Positions 1,050-40,161 of a stretch of DNA of 64,000 nucleotides are shown here, in pieces (positions within the stretch are counted from its first letter, which is position 1; the number at the start of each line of letters is the position of its first letter). The notes beneath the pieces are model-generated. The model was not told where the DNA came from. It did no database searches and saw nothing but the letters and a program-made list of their open reading frames with translations. This stretch comes from a virus: positions 61,546-125,545 of IMG/VR virus record IMGVR_UViG_3300049893_002454. One strand, given 5' to 3'. Position numbers and translations under genes: made by a program.

Positions 1050-1156
1050 ACTTTACTACAATAGCTACGGAGCGTACCAATAAGATTACAGCGCTACACC
1101 TTAATATACTACATGGCAAGCTGAGCTATCTAATCCCACTATCTCCATATACTGTA

Positions 1157-1164
1157 TATAAATA
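1157..1164 (+). promoter_or_regulatory. Possible late-promoter-like box TATAAATA
   Basis: The gap between 1049 and 1233 holds TATAAATA at 1157-1164, the same octamer as the T4 late promoter core. It lies 69 bases before the sigma-like gene. A short inverted repeat (CGGAT/ATCCG) follows around 1170-1187. The match is exact, but the gap is AT-rich and no -35 element is clear, so promoter activity is only a guess. Confidence 0.25.
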
Positions 1165-1232
1165 ATATACGGATTTTTCTATATCCGGAAGCAATAGCCA
1201 TTGCCCTGGTAGTAGAATATATGGAGATTTGT

Positions 1233-1661
1233 ATGGCATCTAAAAGTGACCCGATACAGTTTAAATATCGCGAAATGAGCCTCGAGCCATCGCTATTGGG
1301 CAATTTCTGCGAATCTGATGGGCTTTACAGTACTGACTATCAAAAAACCGATGAATTATTAGATCTTGTGGATGAGTTGAATGAACGGATCCGCGAGATT
1401 ATAACCGTTCGTCTAACTGACCGGCAGCGGGAAGTAATGGAGCTGCTATATTATCATGGACTCACACAGACCGAAGTCGCACTTAGACTTGGGTTGTGTC
1501 AGCCTACCATACACAAGACCACATCTGGCAACCTTGACTATAAAAATGGTGGTAAGAGATATGGCGGGGCACTGAAGAAGATTAAAAAAATCTGTGATGA
1601 GGATGAACGTATTAGCTTTATTATGAAACGTATAACCGAAATTAAGACAGGAAGTATATGA
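1233..1661 (+). CDS. Sigma-70 region 4-like HTH protein
   Basis: This 142-residue protein probably binds DNA. Residues about 61-97 read as a helix-turn-helix of the sigma-70 region 4 type: LTDRQREVMELLYYHGLTQT leads into a recognition helix around residues 81-97. No sigma region 2 is visible, so it is not a full sigma factor. It may be a phage transcription regulator or a small-terminase-like HTH protein. The ATG at 1233 is preferred over 1221 because GGAG sits seven bases before it. It overlaps the next small gene by four bases (ATGA), so the two are probably translated together. Confidence 0.6.
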   Translation: MASKSDPIQFKYREMSLEPSLLGNFCESDGLYSTDYQKTDELLDLVDELNERIREIITVRLTDRQREVMELLYYHGLTQTEVALRLGLCQPTIHKTTSGNLDYKNGGKRYGGALKKIKKICDEDERISFIMKRITEIKTGSI

Positions 1662-1801
1662 AGAAGACTGGGATTACTGTTAAGGTATATGAGCGCACCA
1701 AGCAAGTTGCAGAGGATGGTTTTAGTCAGGCTAGAGTAGTATTGTGTTGTCAGGGTAAGGCTCATACCCATGGCGGTTTAGGATGGAAGTATTTGACCTA
1801 A
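1658..1801 (+). CDS. Stand-alone NUMOD-like DNA-binding repeat, 47 aa
   Basis: This short gene starts at an ATG that overlaps the upstream stop codon. Its second half has the pattern DGFSxxxVxxCCxGKxxTHGGxxW (residues about 20-43). The same pattern occurs four times in the GIY-YIG endonuclease at 37931-38995, for example DGFSPGKVSACC followed by THGGYRW. In homing endonucleases such repeats are modular DNA-binding elements. Here one repeat stands without a nuclease domain. It could be a remnant of a lost homing endonuclease or a small DNA-binding partner of the HTH protein encoded just upstream. Similarity to the later gene is plain by eye; the function is inference. Confidence 0.55.
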   Translation: MKKTGITVKVYERTKQVAEDGFSQARVVLCCQGKAHTHGGLGWKYLT

Positions 1802-1811
1802 GGAGTATTGT

Positions 1812-2402
1812 ATGAAATATACAGAAGAAAGCATTAGTTTAGAACTAGAGAAACTAAATAAAGAAATGCATTCACTTAATAGTGAAATTGAAAAAATGCG
1901 ATACACAAGTCTACCATCCGAGGTTGAGCCTGGTACTTGGTATAAAATAAAGTTACCAGAAGGGGAGTTTCTACGAAGAGCTGGGGAACATTTGCAACAA
2001 TATGCTGAGCTAAAGCGCGACAGGAGAGCCCTAGAGTATATGCTCAGAGAGTTGCGTGATGAGGAGAAGAGGCGTAAAAATATAGTCCCCAAGGAAAAGA
2101 ATTCAGATGACTATAGCTTTAATCTAGATTTCGAATCACTCGCATCCCGCAGAGCTGCCCGTTTGTTAAAAATTGCCGCTTGTGCGTGTGATGAAATGGG
2201 CGCTGAAGATCACGAAGATGAAGATTATATGTCTCATCAGAACGCGACCGCTATACTAGAGCAAGCGATTTTTATTGCAAAAACAATATCTGAACATACC
2301 GGAGAGGGCCATAAGTTGGATGACTGGTTGGAAGATAAGATTTCCAAGGTGGCCGACGACATGGATGAAATTTTTAAGTACTTAAAGCATGGTAAAGATT
2401 AA
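1812..2402 (+). CDS. Hypothetical coiled-coil protein, 196 aa
   Basis: I recognise no family. An AAGGAG ribosome binding site seven bases upstream supports the ATG at 1812. The N-terminal half (about residues 3-95) is highly charged and predicted by eye to form coiled coil, with many Glu, Lys and Leu. The C-terminal half is acidic and has an Ala-rich helix around residues 112-125 (RAARLLKIAACACDEMG), which loosely resembles the helical hairpin found in several other proteins of the window. It sits between the HTH genes and the first structural candidates. It may be a virion or scaffold-associated protein, but nothing proves it. Confidence 0.5.
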   Translation: MKYTEESISLELEKLNKEMHSLNSEIEKMRYTSLPSEVEPGTWYKIKLPEGEFLRRAGEHLQQYAELKRDRRALEYMLRELRDEEKRRKNIVPKEKNSDDYSFNLDFESLASRRAARLLKIAACACDEMGAEDHEDEDYMSHQNATAILEQAIFIAKTISEHTGEGHKLDDWLEDKISKVADDMDEIFKYLKHGKD

Positions 2403-2477
2403 TTGTACGAACTGATAATATTAAGTATCTATCAATAACCAACTAGATACTTTGATCTTATTCTATTTGGAGGACGG

Positions 2478-2978
2478 ATGTCTACTGATTTTGATTGGGC
2501 TCATCTCATCAATGTTATTGAGCCGAAGCGTGACACTCAGTGCCTTGCTTGGGAAGACGTGCGAAGTAATTTCCGCAAGATAGCCTGGGACGTATACAAG
2601 CCTCTAGATGGCTCGGAACAATTATGGGAACTGCGCGATGGCGACGATGGTAGAAAGTATTTGTACGCCATGTATCAAAGTGCGCCAGAAAAGCCCGCCG
2701 AGAGCAATATAATTGAAGAGATCAGAACAACGGCCTCCGCTGACTGGACCGCTACTTGTGATCGAGATCGTAAAAATATAACCCTAAGTTTTAAAGGGTT
2801 TCCGCTCAAGCGCTTTGCATCTACAGAGTTTAAGTTTGAACCAGATGAAGCTGAGCAATTTGCTGCTTTTTTACAAGCGAAGACCGCACAACCAGAATTT
2901 GTGCGACAAGTGCTAAAGGGACTACCGTTACATATGGCAGAGGTTGTCTCTGAGCTAAAGACACATAGCGAGGAATAA
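2478..2978 (+). CDS. Hypothetical protein, 166 aa
   Basis: I do not recognise it. GGAGG lies five bases before the ATG. The protein has no membrane segment or signal peptide. It has a Trp-rich N-terminal half (FDWAHL, LAWEDV, IAWDVY, QLWELR) and a C-terminal Ala/Glu-rich helix. The gene ends one base before the next ATG at 2980, so it is probably co-translated with the 514-residue protein that follows. Its place at the head of a unit that ends at the 5825 terminator suggests a virion or assembly protein. Confidence 0.5.
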   Translation: MSTDFDWAHLINVIEPKRDTQCLAWEDVRSNFRKIAWDVYKPLDGSEQLWELRDGDDGRKYLYAMYQSAPEKPAESNIIEEIRTTASADWTATCDRDRKNITLSFKGFPLKRFASTEFKFEPDEAEQFAAFLQAKTAQPEFVRQVLKGLPLHMAEVVSELKTHSEE

Positions 2979-2979
2979 T

Positions 2980-4524
2980 ATGTCTCAAAAAGTAGATTTG
3001 GCACAGTTGCTCAGTCTGACAAATCAGGTTCTGACTGGGAAGGAATATTTTGTTTCGACCGTATTAGGGCGTCTAGATGATGCGGCAACTGTTATGCCAC
3101 ATGATGCAGCCATTCGCACGGCCCAGTTAGCACTTAAGCGCAGGCTGGAGAAAGAAGGCAGCCTAAGCACAATTACTCAAAAACAATTTCAATCATTATA
3201 TGATGATGTGTGTGCTCTAGGCAATCGCACTGCCTTTCGAGAATTATTAGGAGACTTGCTGGTCACTGCAGCTCCTGAGCCCACCGCTCACTATAACCCA
3301 GATTTCACCGCCTCTCACAGAGATTCCGATGATGTCCTCAAACTCGCTGATGATAATTTGGTCGGAGAATTCTCTGTATTGTGGGGCAATACTAAGGTGG
3401 CCGGTGACCGAGTAGTCCAAAATGGTGCTGATAGTTTAAAGATACACTTCGCTTCTTTGGGTTTCAGTAATCCCACCGCAGAAGTAGTCGATCGTGCTGA
3501 CGGATTTCTTATGTTCTCCGTTCAGGCCGACAGTCCAATAGGCAGATTTACTACTTATGTTCCAGTGGAAGTAAATAGCGGTTCGGCGCTTATGCCTAGC
3601 GTATTTGCTTCTAGTAGCGGATTTTCTGAATTAACTAAGGATAATCTTCTTACTTATGCTCGTGACTTACATTCCGGCTCTACTCGACTAGCTTCTCCCC
3701 AAAAGTTATTAGCTGGGTTGGTAGCTGTCGCTGCCGAATCGAGGCCAGTGTTAGCAGTTAAGACCGCAAGCGGAGATGATATTGCCTTAGCCAGCCCAAC
3801 ACTCTATCAGACGGTCTCTGATCATGTAGTAGCTGAAGAGGAAGAGCGCTATACAGAATTCCCAGATCAATTAACTGGTATGGTAACCCCAGAGTTGCGT
3901 GATGCCATTATAGAAGCAGGTCTTACATACAGCAAGGATATTGTTATTACGGCCAAGACAATTGTTTCAGACAGTATCCGTAGTGCTGGTCTGATTATAG
4001 ATCGCTTAGCTATTGACTCTGAGTTTGATGGCGGGCTGGTCGTAGCAGCTTCAATTACCGGCCCTGGTGGCAAGAAAACCATTCAGGTTCCAATTGAAGT
4101 AGTCGGCAGTCAAGTGCTTATGCCTAGCGTATTTACTTCAGGTATAGCAGTTGAGGCCTTTGATGTTTCTTCATTAAAGAAATTTGCAGCTGCAACTGAT
4201 GTAGGCGTATTCAATGCTGCGTTTTCTACAAAGTCCGGATGGTCGTATAAAGACCTATACTCCCATGTTATCAAAAGTGCTGCATATGGAAACTTCGTTG
4301 AGGCAGAAGATGCTATGTCCGTTATAGCTGAGCAATATGGCCCAGATTTTCATAGAGCAGTTTTCACAGATTTATCAGACATACTGAGCAATGCTGCCAG
4401 CTCTGGCGAGAGCACTGCAACTCCGATTGAGCAGATGATCGCCGAAGCCGGTGAGCGTGCGCGTAATATCGAAGATCGCATAAAGATGAGCAGCACGCTT
4501 ATGTATCTTATTCCAGAAGATTGA
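2980..4524 (+). CDS. Probable virion protein with internal domain duplication
   Basis: This 514-residue protein is not a family I can name. It contains two copies of one domain: around residues 180-205 it reads TYVPVEVNSGSALMPSVFAS and around 365-390 QVPIEVVGSQVLMPSVFTS, each preceded by a beta-rich stretch with a Gly turn. The copies also match at DNA level over about 20 bases near 3589 and 4117. The C-terminus is helical. Length, the beta-rich repeated domain and the position among head genes fit a structural protein. It overlaps the upstream end of the next gene's reading frame, with that gene's chosen start eight bases downstream. Confidence 0.55.
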   Translation: MSQKVDLAQLLSLTNQVLTGKEYFVSTVLGRLDDAATVMPHDAAIRTAQLALKRRLEKEGSLSTITQKQFQSLYDDVCALGNRTAFRELLGDLLVTAAPEPTAHYNPDFTASHRDSDDVLKLADDNLVGEFSVLWGNTKVAGDRVVQNGADSLKIHFASLGFSNPTAEVVDRADGFLMFSVQADSPIGRFTTYVPVEVNSGSALMPSVFASSSGFSELTKDNLLTYARDLHSGSTRLASPQKLLAGLVAVAAESRPVLAVKTASGDDIALASPTLYQTVSDHVVAEEEERYTEFPDQLTGMVTPELRDAIIEAGLTYSKDIVITAKTIVSDSIRSAGLIIDRLAIDSEFDGGLVVAASITGPGGKKTIQVPIEVVGSQVLMPSVFTSGIAVEAFDVSSLKKFAAATDVGVFNAAFSTKSGWSYKDLYSHVIKSAAYGNFVEAEDAMSVIAEQYGPDFHRAVFTDLSDILSNAASSGESTATPIEQMIAEAGERARNIEDRIKMSSTLMYLIPED

Positions 4525-35804: not shown

Positions 35805-37810
35805 ATGACTACAGGTCTTTTTAATGACAAGGGAGAGCTGAATGCTACATCAGTAGCCGATGCAGTCTCTAACCTTGCCAAGTATGCAAGTGTTATTCAA
35901 AATCATATGAGCTCAAATCAGTCTCTCGCCGGCCGCCCATCCCTCAATGAGCAGCAACGTGACGACATGGTTAAGCGCGCTCTTCAAACAACCGAAGGCA
36001 AGATTGCACTCGGCCAAGCCATGGCTTTGCCGATCCGACGCAACCTTGACTATCAAGGCGTTGCGAGAAAGGCTTTCGTCGTAGATCCTTTGCCAAACGG
36101 CGCCCTTGCCGTTTATGATCGCGACGTCGATGTGGCTGCAGTAGTTGTAGCCAGCAACGGTTCAGCTCCAGAATCACAAGTTCGTGGCGACCGCATAAAC
36201 GTTCCGGAATTTGAAATCGTTTCAAACCCGGTCGTTCGTATCCGTGAAGTCAAGATGCGTCGATTCAATGTGATCGACCGTGCTGTTCAAAAGGCACGCC
36301 AGGAGATCAACTGACCTTGGGTCTCCGTTAAATACCAGGTTATGCTGGAAATCCTCGAAGCTGTTTAGTACCGAATAATCGAGTAATAATCTAAACAGTA
36401 TGGGACAATCAGCAGGGGATAGTTAAATGAAAGTCGAAGATATCCTTTCTTATGAACAGCTTTATGAGCTCTATGTAGTAATTAAACTTTCTGATGCAGA
36501 AATTGCAGAGAAATTTGATTTAACAGTAGGGCAGGTTCACAGACTTAGAAATAAGTATTTGATTAAAGCTATTGAGCCATATGAACGCCATCCTAAGGCA
36601 AAATTAGATGATCAAGAGATTAGCCTAATTATAGGATTGCTTTTGGGCGACGGCCATATGCGTTTAAGAGAAGGCAGGAACACCTACCCGTCTCTTATTA
36701 TTGAGCAGTCAGCTAAGCATAGAGAATATTGCTTTTGGCTGTTTGAAGCACTTAAAGATTGGGTCCCGGATAGAAAAAGGTACCCGCGTCAGGCTCAGCA
36801 TAAGAATAAAGAAAAGATATATCACTCGTACACTTTTAGCACAGTTAGCCACCCAGCATTCTTTCAATTATATAATGCATTTTATAAGAATGGAAGAAAG
36901 ACCCTTGATATACAATATATAGCCAATCACTTTAATGTATTATCACTGGCTGTATGGTTGCAGGATGATGGCTCACTAACTGGAACTTGTAAAAGAAATA
37001 TTCTGTACACTAATTCATTTTCAAGAAGTGATATTAATGGCTTAAGGGATATTTTATTTGATAGGTTTGGGCTAAAAACTTGGATTTCTAAACGCACTAC
37101 AACTACCGAAATTAGTTATGAGATTGCGTTTGATAGAGAATCATCCAAGAAACTTTCAGACATGCTACGACACATCGTTGTACCAAGTATGTTGTACAAG
37201 CTAATCCCCTCAGAGACTACAAATGGTACTGCTACATAGTAGCAGAAGGTATAGTCCGACACTCCGAGCGATTGGAGATTAACAGAGCTGCCAAGCTCAA
37301 GAAGATGCTAACGCATTTGCTGCGCTGGATTTCGCAGCCGACGCCTCCCTTAGTGGTGAAAACACCGCTCAGGACATCGTCGATGGTGGTTTAACCCGTC
37401 GCGATCTCGTTGAGATCTCGACCCAGGTTGATCGCTGGGATCTGGCTACCTCGAAGTTCTTCATGAACATCTTCGAGTTTAACGATATGCGTCTGTGGTC
37501 CTCACAGAACGGCACTGGCGTTGCCGATGTAGATCCGGTTACCCACCGTGAAATCCTCCAAACCGGTCTTTATGGCCGTATCTTTGGAGCGGACATTATC
37601 GTCAGCAAGATGGTTACCCCAGGTACCGTATTTGCTTGCGCTGATGCCGAATTCGTCGGTGTTATGCCAGTACGACAGGACATCGAAATCCTCCCAGCGG
37701 ACGAACCAAAGCGTCTAATGTTAGGATGGGTGGTCTCGGAAATTATCGGCATAGGCGTTGCAAACCCACGCGGTGTTGCAGTAGGCCGTAAGAGCGTAAC
37801 TGTAGGCTGA
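35805..37810 (+). CDS. Major capsid protein, split by a group I intron
   Basis: The gene is join(35805..36307, 37291..37810). The spliced product is 340 residues and forms the icosahedral shell; an HK97 fold is expected. Exon 1 encodes residues 1-167 plus two bases of codon 168, and exon 2 the rest, so the junction reads QEI-QAQEDANAFAALDFAA. Without splicing the frame stops at 36314. Typical capsid features in exon 2 are TGLYGRIFGADIIVSKMVTP, EFVGVMPVRQDIEILPAD and a C-terminal NPRGVAVGRKSV. GGAG lies before the ATG. Codons are unusually C-rich. Fold assignment rests on position, size and sequence style. Confidence 0.85.
36308..37290 (+). ncRNA. Group I intron in the capsid gene
   Basis: The 983-nt self-splicing intron can be placed by pairing. 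P1: exon GGAGAT (36302-36307) pairs with GTCTCC (36321-36326), leaving the expected U-G wobble at the 5' splice site. P10: CTTGG (36316-36320) pairs with the first exon 2 bases CCAAG (37291-37295). The intron ends in G at 37290. Core elements include the helix CTGTTTAG/CTAAACAG (36361-36368 / 36391-36398), AATCAGCAGGGG near 36407-36418 and TATAGTCCGACAC near 37250, close to the usual P7 region. Splicing restores a continuous capsid frame. It hosts a LAGLIDADG gene. Confidence 0.92.
36427..37239 (+). CDS. LAGLIDADG homing endonuclease in the intron
   Basis: The 270-residue protein cuts intronless capsid alleles and so spreads the intron. Two LAGLIDADG motifs are visible: IIGLLLGDGHM (about residues 74-84) and LAVWLQDDGSL (about 176-186); each ends with the acidic residue that binds catalytic metal. 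The N-terminal 55 residues contain a helix-turn-helix (SDAEIAEKFDLTVGQVHRL). GGGG upstream of the ATG within the intron supports translation. It sits within the intron loop, before the conserved 3' core. The protein is full length and the motifs are intact, so the element may be active. Confidence 0.93.
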   Translation: MKVEDILSYEQLYELYVVIKLSDAEIAEKFDLTVGQVHRLRNKYLIKAIEPYERHPKAKLDDQEISLIIGLLLGDGHMRLREGRNTYPSLIIEQSAKHREYCFWLFEALKDWVPDRKRYPRQAQHKNKEKIYHSYTFSTVSHPAFFQLYNAFYKNGRKTLDIQYIANHFNVLSLAVWLQDDGSLTGTCKRNILYTNSFSRSDINGLRDILFDRFGLKTWISKRTTTTEISYEIAFDRESSKKLSDMLRHIVVPSMLYKLIPSETTNGTAT

Positions 37811-37930: not shown

Positions 37931-38995
37931 ATGATCATCATCATGATCGGCATCTACCGAATTTATAACTTAGTCTCCAAACATTCATATATAGGATCAT
38001 CGAAAAATATTTCTTCTCGATGGGATTCTCATAGGCGGGAGCTGAATAGAGGAGTCCATCATTCGAAATATCTACAGGCAGCATGGAATAAATATGGCGA
38101 AGGGAGCTTTGTATTTGAGATCGTAGAGCTATGTGATCAGGACGATTTACGAGATAGAGAGCAGTCGATGATCAATCTGATTAAACCCGAATATAACATC
38201 TCTATGATTGTAGATCTTCCCAATCCTCCTCCGAATAGGCCAATTATCCGTACAAATATACTTACTGGCGAAACTGTTATCTTTGCAACACGCGACCTTG
38301 CCGCTATGGATGGTGACTTCAATGAAGGCAGCATTACCTCATGTTGCCATGGTCATGCATCTAGTCATCGTGGATATTTTTGGAAGTTTGCTGACGGATC
38401 AACTCCAGAATTTAGACCTGTCAATGGCGTATTTAATGTATTGCGTATTGAAATAGATGGATACTCTGTTCAGAAATTTCCCTCTATCAGGAATGCAGAG
38501 ATAAACACTCCTGGTTCCACATATAAGGGCATACATGCCTGTTGCAAAAAGCAGCTAAAGAGTCATGCTGGTTATCGTTGGTGCTTCGATGGGTATCAAC
38601 AAGTTTATGCTAGATCGCCTAGGCGTAAAAGGATATGTAATAGGGCAGTACGTAGAGTTTCAATTGACTCTAATGAAATTTATATCTACAGCAGAGTTTC
38701 TGACGTTAAGAGTGATGGTTATTCTCTTGGCAATGTTATATCTTGCTGTAATGGACATAGAAAGTCGCATAAGAGATGTATTTGGGAGTGGGATGACCAG
38801 ACTACTCCACGCGCATATGAGTCAGAAGAGAAAGGTAAGGGATCTGTTATTGGCACCTCTGTTCATACTGGAGAGATTCGTATTTATCCCAGTATATCTG
38901 CAACTTCTGTAGACGGATTTAGTCCGGGCAAAGTCTCAGCATGCTGTCTTGGAAGAAGAAAAACTCATGGAGGCTACAGATGGCAGAGACAGTAG
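37931..38995 (+). CDS. GIY-YIG homing endonuclease with four NUMOD-like repeats
   Basis: The N-terminus has the GIY-YIG nuclease: IGIYRIYN then KHSYIGSS, then RWDSHRRELN, with a Glu downstream in REQSMINLI-KPEYN. The C-terminal two-thirds holds four repeats ending CC-x(6-10)-SH-x-GY-W: SITSCCHGHASSHRGYFW, GIHACCKKQLKSHAGYRW, NVISCCNGHRKSHKRCIW and KVSACCLGRRKTHGGYRW. These repeats probably read DNA. ATG at 37931 or 37943 are both possible; neither has a strong ribosome binding site. It lies directly after the capsid terminator, so it seems to be a free-standing mobile gene. It overlaps the next gene by 16 bases. Confidence 0.88.
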   Translation: MIIIMIGIYRIYNLVSKHSYIGSSKNISSRWDSHRRELNRGVHHSKYLQAAWNKYGEGSFVFEIVELCDQDDLRDREQSMINLIKPEYNISMIVDLPNPPPNRPIIRTNILTGETVIFATRDLAAMDGDFNEGSITSCCHGHASSHRGYFWKFADGSTPEFRPVNGVFNVLRIEIDGYSVQKFPSIRNAEINTPGSTYKGIHACCKKQLKSHAGYRWCFDGYQQVYARSPRRKRICNRAVRRVSIDSNEIYIYSRVSDVKSDGYSLGNVISCCNGHRKSHKRCIWEWDDQTTPRAYESEEKGKGSVIGTSVHTGEIRIYPSISATSVDGFSPGKVSACCLGRRKTHGGYRWQRQ

Positions 38996-40161
38996 TATGT
39001 CCGATATGCAATAGCAATCATAAATATATTGCGAAACATCTGCAACTAGTACACAGTGATGTATATCGTCAGAATGAAATGCTGTGTATAGAACTCTATA
39101 ATTCAGGTTTAACCGTAGCAGAGATTTCTAAACATCCGGATATTATCTTCAATAATAAAATGACTATAAGTAGGATTCTGCGCCGTTTTATTGACGTAGA
39201 TACTATAGAGCGAGCGCGTCGCCTTCGTGCAGCTACGTCGCTAAGTCGTGCTGGTAGAAAGAAGAAAGCTTTAGCTAATGCGAAGGCGATAGCTTCGAGT
39301 TCTAATAGACATAATGTACTTAATGCTATATCGGATTTAGTTACTCTGGACTCATCTCACATTAGAGAGGTTCAAGAATTTGCAGCTGAGTCTGGATTAG
39401 ATTTTAATCCACGCAATGGTATAATCTCAAAAGATAATAAGATAATACTAATCCTTCCAATCTCAGATATATTCTCAACATACTCTTTTCTTGCCCGTGA
39501 CTTTTATCAACAAGCCATTAGTACCTCAAATCCTCTAATATTATTCTTAGATGAATTGCGATCAAAGAAGGTCCTAATTAGCTCTATGATTGATGCTAGA
39601 ATAGGTAGCGAGAATTTAATCCGCTGCTCGGCCAGGCAGTGTCTAGTTCGACAACTATCATCACAAGAGTCAAGAGCATTTTTTGACAATAACCATATAT
39701 CAGGTCACGTTACCGGCAGCATGTATGTTGGTCTAGAATTTAATAATGAAATTATAGCCGCTATATCTATGCGCAGGCCATTCACTAATCGGTATAGCGG
39801 ATATCTAGAAATTGCTAGATTTGCAGTAAAATCAGGATATATTGTTAGGGGCGCCTTCAGTAAATTACTAAGTAATATCATTAATCAAATAGGTGCGTCA
39901 TATACTCATATATTATCGTACTGTGATTTGCGCTATGGTACTGGAAATGTATATCGTGTGAATGGATTTACTGAAATTGGTCGCACTAAGCCAGATTACT
40001 GCTATACGGACGGTATAAGACGATACCATAGATTTAAGTATCGTGCTGCAGACGGTCGTACTGAACGCGAGATTGCTGAAGCGGCTGGATTGCATAGGTT
40101 ATATGGGGTAGGGTCGATTATATACGAACTGGAGATTCCCGCAGGCAGGAGCCGGACCTAA
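38980..40161 (+). CDS. Zinc-finger protein with Vsr/GNAT-associated C-terminal region
   Basis: I chose ATG 38980 because GGAGG precedes it. The 393-residue protein begins with CPICxxxxxYIAKHLQLVH, a C2H2-like finger, then a helix-turn-helix-like part (TVAEISKHP). Residues about 195-350 (IRCSARQCLVRQL, FFDNNHISGH, EIARFAVKSGYIVRGAFSKL, YCDLRYGTGN-VYRVNGF) match the region that follows Vsr-like nuclease domains in phage homing proteins and has a GNAT-like look. The part just before it (LDELRSKKVLISSMIDARIG) may be a degenerate nuclease core. It is probably a mobile DNA-targeting protein; activity is uncertain. Confidence 0.65.
   Translation: MAETVVCPICNSNHKYIAKHLQLVHSDVYRQNEMLCIELYNSGLTVAEISKHPDIIFNNKMTISRILRRFIDVDTIERARRLRAATSLSRAGRKKKALANAKAIASSSNRHNVLNAISDLVTLDSSHIREVQEFAAESGLDFNPRNGIISKDNKIILILPISDIFSTYSFLARDFYQQAISTSNPLILFLDELRSKKVLISSMIDARIGSENLIRCSARQCLVRQLSSQESRAFFDNNHISGHVTGSMYVGLEFNNEIIAAISMRRPFTNRYSGYLEIARFAVKSGYIVRGAFSKLLSNIINQIGASYTHILSYCDLRYGTGNVYRVNGFTEIGRTKPDYCYTDGIRRYHRFKYRAADGRTEREIAEAAGLHRLYGVGSIIYELEIPAGRSRT

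Follow-up and report, generated by a model that had tools for sequence, protein, structure and literature searches.

The interrupted capsid gene and its predicted splice junction

The window, that is, the whole stretch of 64,000 nucleotides of DNA analysed here (bases 61546–125545 of a 125,545-base IMG/VR virus record assembled from a metagenome), carries a major capsid protein gene in two pieces separated by an insert of 983 nt (Table 1). The major capsid protein is usually the most abundant protein of a phage, and its gene is, in phages generally, highly expressed and essential. Without splicing, the capsid open reading frame (ORF) that starts at 35805 runs into the insert, where its stop codon ends 7 nt after U36307. 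Joining 35805–36307 to 37291–37810, so that U36307 is followed by C37291, yields a stop-free frame of 340 residues in which codon 168 is exactly restored by the removal of the insert. The joined product matches the profile phrog_2522 ("major head protein") over its full length (residues 9–335, 5.2e-75), in agreement with a first-pass annotation that had predicted a continuous capsid protein of this size. Its nearest isolate homologue is gp27 of Bacillus phage G (51%), and the next ones are mycobacteriophage and Erwinia phage capsids. Apart from these two pieces, the whole record contains no capsid gene of the phrog_2522 family.

Table 1. Features of the interrupted capsid gene and its insert, in window coordinates.
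Feature	Position	Strand	Basis
Exon 1, major capsid protein gene (residues 1–167 and two bases of codon 168)	35805–36307	+	phrog_2522 match of joined product; relatives
P1 5′ strand (exon) GGAGAU, U·G at splice site	36302–36307	+	pairs with 36321–36326
Group I intron, 983 nt	36308–37290	+	core helices, covariance model, same intron in second phage
In-frame stop of unspliced capsid frame, inside P1 loop	36312–36314	+	sequence
Internal guide sequence: P10 strand CUUGG (36316–36320) and P1 3′ strand GUCUCC (36321–36326)	36316–36326	+	pairing; identical in L091
P3 5′ strand UACCA, pairs with 37224–37228 UGGUA	36333–36337	+	same-register pairing in 68 other introns
P4 5′ strand, pairs with 36409–36414	36343–36348	+	conserved class motif AUGCUGGAAA
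P5 (36352–36355/36402–36405) and P5a (36361–36368 CUGUUUAG / 36391–36398 CUAAACAG)	36352–36405	+	pairing in sequence; class motif GGACAAUCAGCAGG
P6 5′ strand GGGGAU, pairs with 37204–37209 AUCCCC; also likely ORF ribosome-binding site	36415–36420	+	pairing; L091 change
LAGLIDADG homing endonuclease ORF, 270 aa, in P6 loop	36427–37239	+	PF03161, I-SceI match, dN/dS
P7 5′ strand G(A)GACUA, bulged A37214, pairs with 37252–37257	37213–37219	+	68 other introns; R1 match
P3 3′ strand UGGUA	37224–37228	+	68 other introns
P8 hairpin CUGCUA/UAGCAG (37229–37234/37240–37245), ORF stop codon in loop	37229–37245	+	pairing, covariation, R1
P7 3′ strand UAGUCC	37252–37257	+	68 other introns; R1
P9 hairpin CUCCGA-GCGA-UUGGAG (37262–37267/37272–37277), GNRA tetraloop	37262–37277	+	covariation in 46 relatives
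Terminal G of intron	37290	+	sequence, junction scan
Exon 2, capsid gene; CCAAG 37291–37295 is the P10 partner	37291–37810	+	joined frame, relatives, P10

The junction itself is well constrained by comparison with genes that lack the insert. IMG/VR contains 80 uninterrupted capsid loci, 66 of them distinct, and in all 66 distinct relatives the region of the junction motif EIQAQEDAN (residues 155–185) is open straight through, with R159, A160, Q162–R165, E167–Q169, E172, D173 and N175 invariant. The predicted junction had been described as reading like an ordinary capsid segment, and these relatives bear this out. The closest capsid relative (L002), 91% identical, has no intron, as would be expected for a mobile element. 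A scan for junctions with a U before the insert, a G at its end and an open frame returned 14 candidates, and only one of them, 36308–37290, combines a P1 of 6 bp with an adjacent P10 of 5 bp, an arrangement that arose by chance in 82 of 200,000 trials in which the first 50 bases of the intron were shuffled. Since positions 36308 and 37291 both hold a C, the spliced product by itself fits 36308–37290 and 36309–37291 equally; we chose the former because of the U·G pair and the terminal G. P1, P10 and G37290 all lie where the first-pass annotation had placed them. A programmed frameshift or readthrough was weighed and discarded, since nothing but the removal of 983 nt, at the bases defined by P1 and P10, restores the frame.

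Catalytic core, intron class and endonuclease frame

The catalytic core, which was absent from the first-pass annotation, follows the group I order P3, P4, P6, P7 and P8, with the guanosine site in P7. P3 is short (5 bp) and neither P2 nor P7.1/P7.2 was seen, the corresponding spacers measuring 6 nt (P1 to P3) and 4 nt (P7 5′ strand to P3 3′ strand). A search with a 3′-core pattern uncovered a second contig, L085/L091, in which this intron recurs, and a P4/P5 pattern search of IMG/VR returned at least 119 stretches, from which 69 parsed cores (68 without the window) were used to derive the anatomy. A first sketch of the core, with AUCCUC/GGGGAU as P3, GGACAA/UAGUCC as P7 and the ORF in P8, was rejected on the evidence of the second phage and the 68 other introns; these assign GGGACAAUCAGCAG to P5/P4 and GGGGAU/AUCCCC to P6, and place the 5′ strand of P7 inside the 3′ end of the ORF.

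Covariation within the class provides strong constraints on this assignment, with the exception of P4 and P5, for which it is not independent because the loci were picked by exact P4/P5 motifs; P3, P8 and P9 do have it. In the register adopted for P3, 90% of the cells are paired in the 68 other cores, versus 54% in shuffles (highest 62%) and 25–42% in slid registers. Parts of P7 also served as parsing anchors, its informative part being the covarying first pair and bulge, where the agreement is complete (68/68): CAGAG occurs with UAGUCC in 39 of 39 cases and CAACG with UAGUCU in 29 of 29. Across P7–P8–P9 in 46 of the 68 cores, 93% of the cells are paired versus 70% after shuffling, and changes on both sides number 203 versus 58. 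In P9 the paired fraction of cells among these 46 relatives is 98%, and every pair shows compensatory changes.

We built a covariance model (R1) of the P7–P8–P9 module from 46 other viral introns, leaving out both the window and L091. It matches the window at 37207–37280 (55.7 bits, E 4.2e-13; next match, 0.37), which is its sole real match in the whole 125-kb record. Its match closes P9 at 37280, ten bases short of G37290, and the refuting condition named in the first-pass annotation, a covariance model with splice sites elsewhere, did not arise. The group I intron and both splice sites proposed earlier are thus upheld by a model made without the window, by covariation in the class, by an intron at the same base in L091 and by the 66 relatives that read across the junction. 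By contrast, Rfam at its gathering score yields no match in the window, and RF00028 at a lax threshold scores 14.9 bits against a gathering score of 50, with only the 3′ part correctly placed. This miss is probably due to the ORF, which splits the core and puts about 790 nt of P6 loop between its halves; the ORF-bearing introns of L091, L097 and L212 also fall below the Rfam gathering score. Class members that have no long ORF score 72–80 bits on RF00028, which links the class to group I.

The second contig (L091, IMGVR_UViG_3300043177_000268) is independent, comes from another sample and has the intron inserted at exactly this base. Its identity to the window is 95% in the 5′ non-coding part of the intron and 98% in the last 51 nt, compared with 75% in the ORF outside the core and 82–84% in the exons, and this better preservation of the RNA parts suggests that the ribozyme is under strong selection. 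Three of the L091 changes keep the pairing, namely U-A to U·G in P6, U-A to U·G in P3 and G·U to A-U in P9. L091 has a second intron at nt 286 of the capsid coding sequence, with another LAGLIDADG ORF (32% identical), and removal of both introns gives 340 residues, 309 of them identical to the capsid of the window. Between these two phages the exon dN/dS is about 0.06, which indicates that the capsid is under selection.

The 270-residue ORF belongs to the LAGLIDADG_2 family (PF03161, 4.2e-35), as does I-SceI, the endonuclease of the yeast mitochondrial omega intron, which it matches over residues 58–261 (2.1e-14). Its two acidic motifs, LLLGDG (D75) and WLQDDG (D180/D181), align with those of I-SceI, but, unlike the latter, it has an N-terminal HTH-like region (about residues 1–50) before the domain. 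Compared with L091, its dN is 0.14 and its dS 1.9, for a dN/dS of about 0.07 that is rough because dS is near saturation. The family match, the presence of both catalytic motifs and this low ratio agree with its initial description as intact. The last 36 nt of the ORF overlap P6, P7, P3 and P8, and the GGGG within P6 is its presumed ribosome-binding site. Translation of the ORF would then compete with core folding on the same RNA molecule. Ribosomes on exon 1, on the other hand, should not reach the core, because the unspliced capsid frame ends within P1. In many introns of the class (loci L092–L209), the ORF starts with ATGGACAATCAGCAG (MDNQQ), its first codons being the 3′ strands of the ribozyme P5/P4.

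A probable mobile intron in a capsid gene and its known counterparts

Considering its structure, its conserved pairing and the existence of both uninterrupted and interrupted alleles, the insert is almost certainly a group I intron, both mobile and self-splicing, that interrupts the major capsid gene of a phage. We infer the following course of splicing, cutting and homing. In the transcript, the core P3–P9 would fold and the guide sequence 36316–36326 would form P1 with the last bases of exon 1 and P10 with the first bases of exon 2. A guanosine bound in P7 would attack after U36307, and the freed U would then attack after G37290, joining the exons into the message for the 340-residue capsid. 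The LAGLIDADG endonuclease translated from the ORF in the P6 loop would cut capsid alleles that have no intron, around the conserved EIQAQEDAN codons, and repair of the cut allele would copy the intron in.

Other explanations account less well for these observations. Given that the short P3 and the lack of P2 possibly denote a weak ribozyme, the insert might be imagined as a degenerate intron, formerly mobile, whose splicing is poor or lost and which leaves the gene dead. We consider this very improbable, since the RNA parts are 95–98% identical to those of L091, well above exons and ORF, the exon dN/dS indicates a capsid under selection, and no further capsid gene of this family occurs in the record. 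Still less credible is an assembly chimera that put an intron fragment into the capsid gene: the record is indeed a metagenome contig, but L091, which stems independently from a different sample, shares the intron down to the base of insertion and is diverged throughout. To an equally negligible degree, the insert might be no intron but an endonuclease gene of the free-standing kind, by which the capsid is divided into two chains. LR745208 and L222/L223 do have free-standing LAGLIDADG ORFs immediately downstream of a capsid gene that is intact; however, the full ribozyme core, the P1/P10 pairings and the exact restoration of codon 168 speak against such a split, and the exon 2 frame offers no start codon before M225 of the joined protein (ORF 37463).

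The mobile intron that we favour has several counterparts, as introns in capsid genes (PMC3706429, PMC7886860) and the overlap of an ORF with the ribozyme core (PMC3073962) are already known. For the capsid intron of the mycobacteriophage LittleE (Cluster J), splicing was shown by RT-PCR and N-terminal sequencing (PMC3706429). Like that of the window, it is of group I type, has a U before it and a G at its end, lies in the major capsid gene and contains a LAGLIDADG-like ORF; it differs by its capsid family and host and by its ORF of 177 aa, which is I-CreI-like and on the opposite strand (PMC3706429), whereas the ORF of the window is I-SceI-like (LAGLIDADG_2) and on the sense strand. In the Delta and Zeta groups of crAss-like phages, the capsid gene has several group I introns with endonuclease ORFs, and crAss-like phages with the capsid ORF in five fragments are described, but these phages are another lineage, and their introns were found via signature endonuclease domains (PMC7886860). 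PhiCrAssBcn14 has a LAGLIDADG protein related to that of the window, located between two fragments of a replicative helicase. The td intron of T4 also has its ORF in the P6 loop, with a 3′ end that supplies P6/P7 bases, although its enzyme, I-TevI, is of the GIY-YIG type and the overlap is 20 nt, versus a LAGLIDADG enzyme and 36 nt over P6, P7, P3 and P8 in the window (PMC3073962). In Jug phages and Bastillevirinae, essential genes are interrupted by group I introns that carry endonuclease ORFs, in some cases with overlap of ORF and core, and the LAGLIDADG family phrog_11023 occurs there as well as in the window; the host genes, however, are terL, nrdD and the DNA polymerase (PMC12363816, PMC11878797).

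The window thus provides a well-resolved intron in a capsid gene that Rfam missed, probably through the split core, and the two diverged intron alleles, together with the 91%-identical uninterrupted allele, form a natural set for homing tests.

Insertion sites in related capsid genes

A scan of IMG/VR with the single endonuclease protein found no relatives, but a three-member alignment did, and most of these lie in capsid genes of this family that are interrupted. Among the phrog_2522 capsid relatives, with sites counted from loci of two patterns and one alignment, introns occupy about eight positions of the capsid coding sequence: nt 218, 228 (L216), 230 (L214), 234 (L213, with a weak P10), 286 (L091), 309 (L125), 492 (L097) and 503 (the window and L091), those with bracketed loci being placed by homology and P1/P10. 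In all interrupted capsid loci with solved sites, R1 finds the core. Several phages have two introns in one capsid gene, among them L212 (IMGVR_UViG_3300026133_000017, 1097–3499), with introns at nt 218 and 234 separated by an exon of 16 nt (2308–2323); here the best-scoring P1/P10 solution yields AQAMANPIRRNLDYQG, which is the family sequence. At the threshold used, the P1/P10 rule gave no solution for the double intron of L221, and it did not solve the first intron of L125 or the 3′ end of L113.

On balance, this phage clade appears to have in its capsid gene an insertion hot spot for a single class of LAGLIDADG group I introns, with related free-standing LAGLIDADG ORFs next to intact capsid genes, and the endonuclease lineage may be tied to this gene while moving between sites inside it. 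What is new, as far as our limited search of open papers goes, is the variety of capsid insertion sites in the clade: relatives of the capsid gene carry introns of one class at about eight positions, including the pair with a 16-nt exon between them. The relatives with other insertion positions offer material on how endonucleases change target, on the creep of ORF ends into the ribozyme core and on the minimum exon size between two group I introns.

Further elements were observed in and around these genes. L211 (IMGVR_UViG_3300028840_003855) has five intron-model matches within 5.8 kb and at least two LAGLIDADG ORFs. L087 (IMGVR_UViG_3300015162_000018, 1599–1853) contains an HNH-carrying group I intron (62.3 bits in Rfam) that sits in another, capsid-like-looking phage gene and has a P7–P9 almost the same as that of the window. 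In L082 (LR745208.1, 2965–6654), an open frame of about 1,230 codons made of repeated HTH and LAGLIDADG units lies just downstream of the intact capsid gene. In the window, the capsid gene is directly followed by a GIY-YIG ORF with I-HmuI/NUMOD-like repeats (37949–38995), found at the same place in L091, which looks like a free-standing homing endonuclease. This is overlapped by another ORF (38941–40161), whose C-terminal half resembles phrog_3339 ("homing endonuclease") and, weakly, the Mom/GNAT family.
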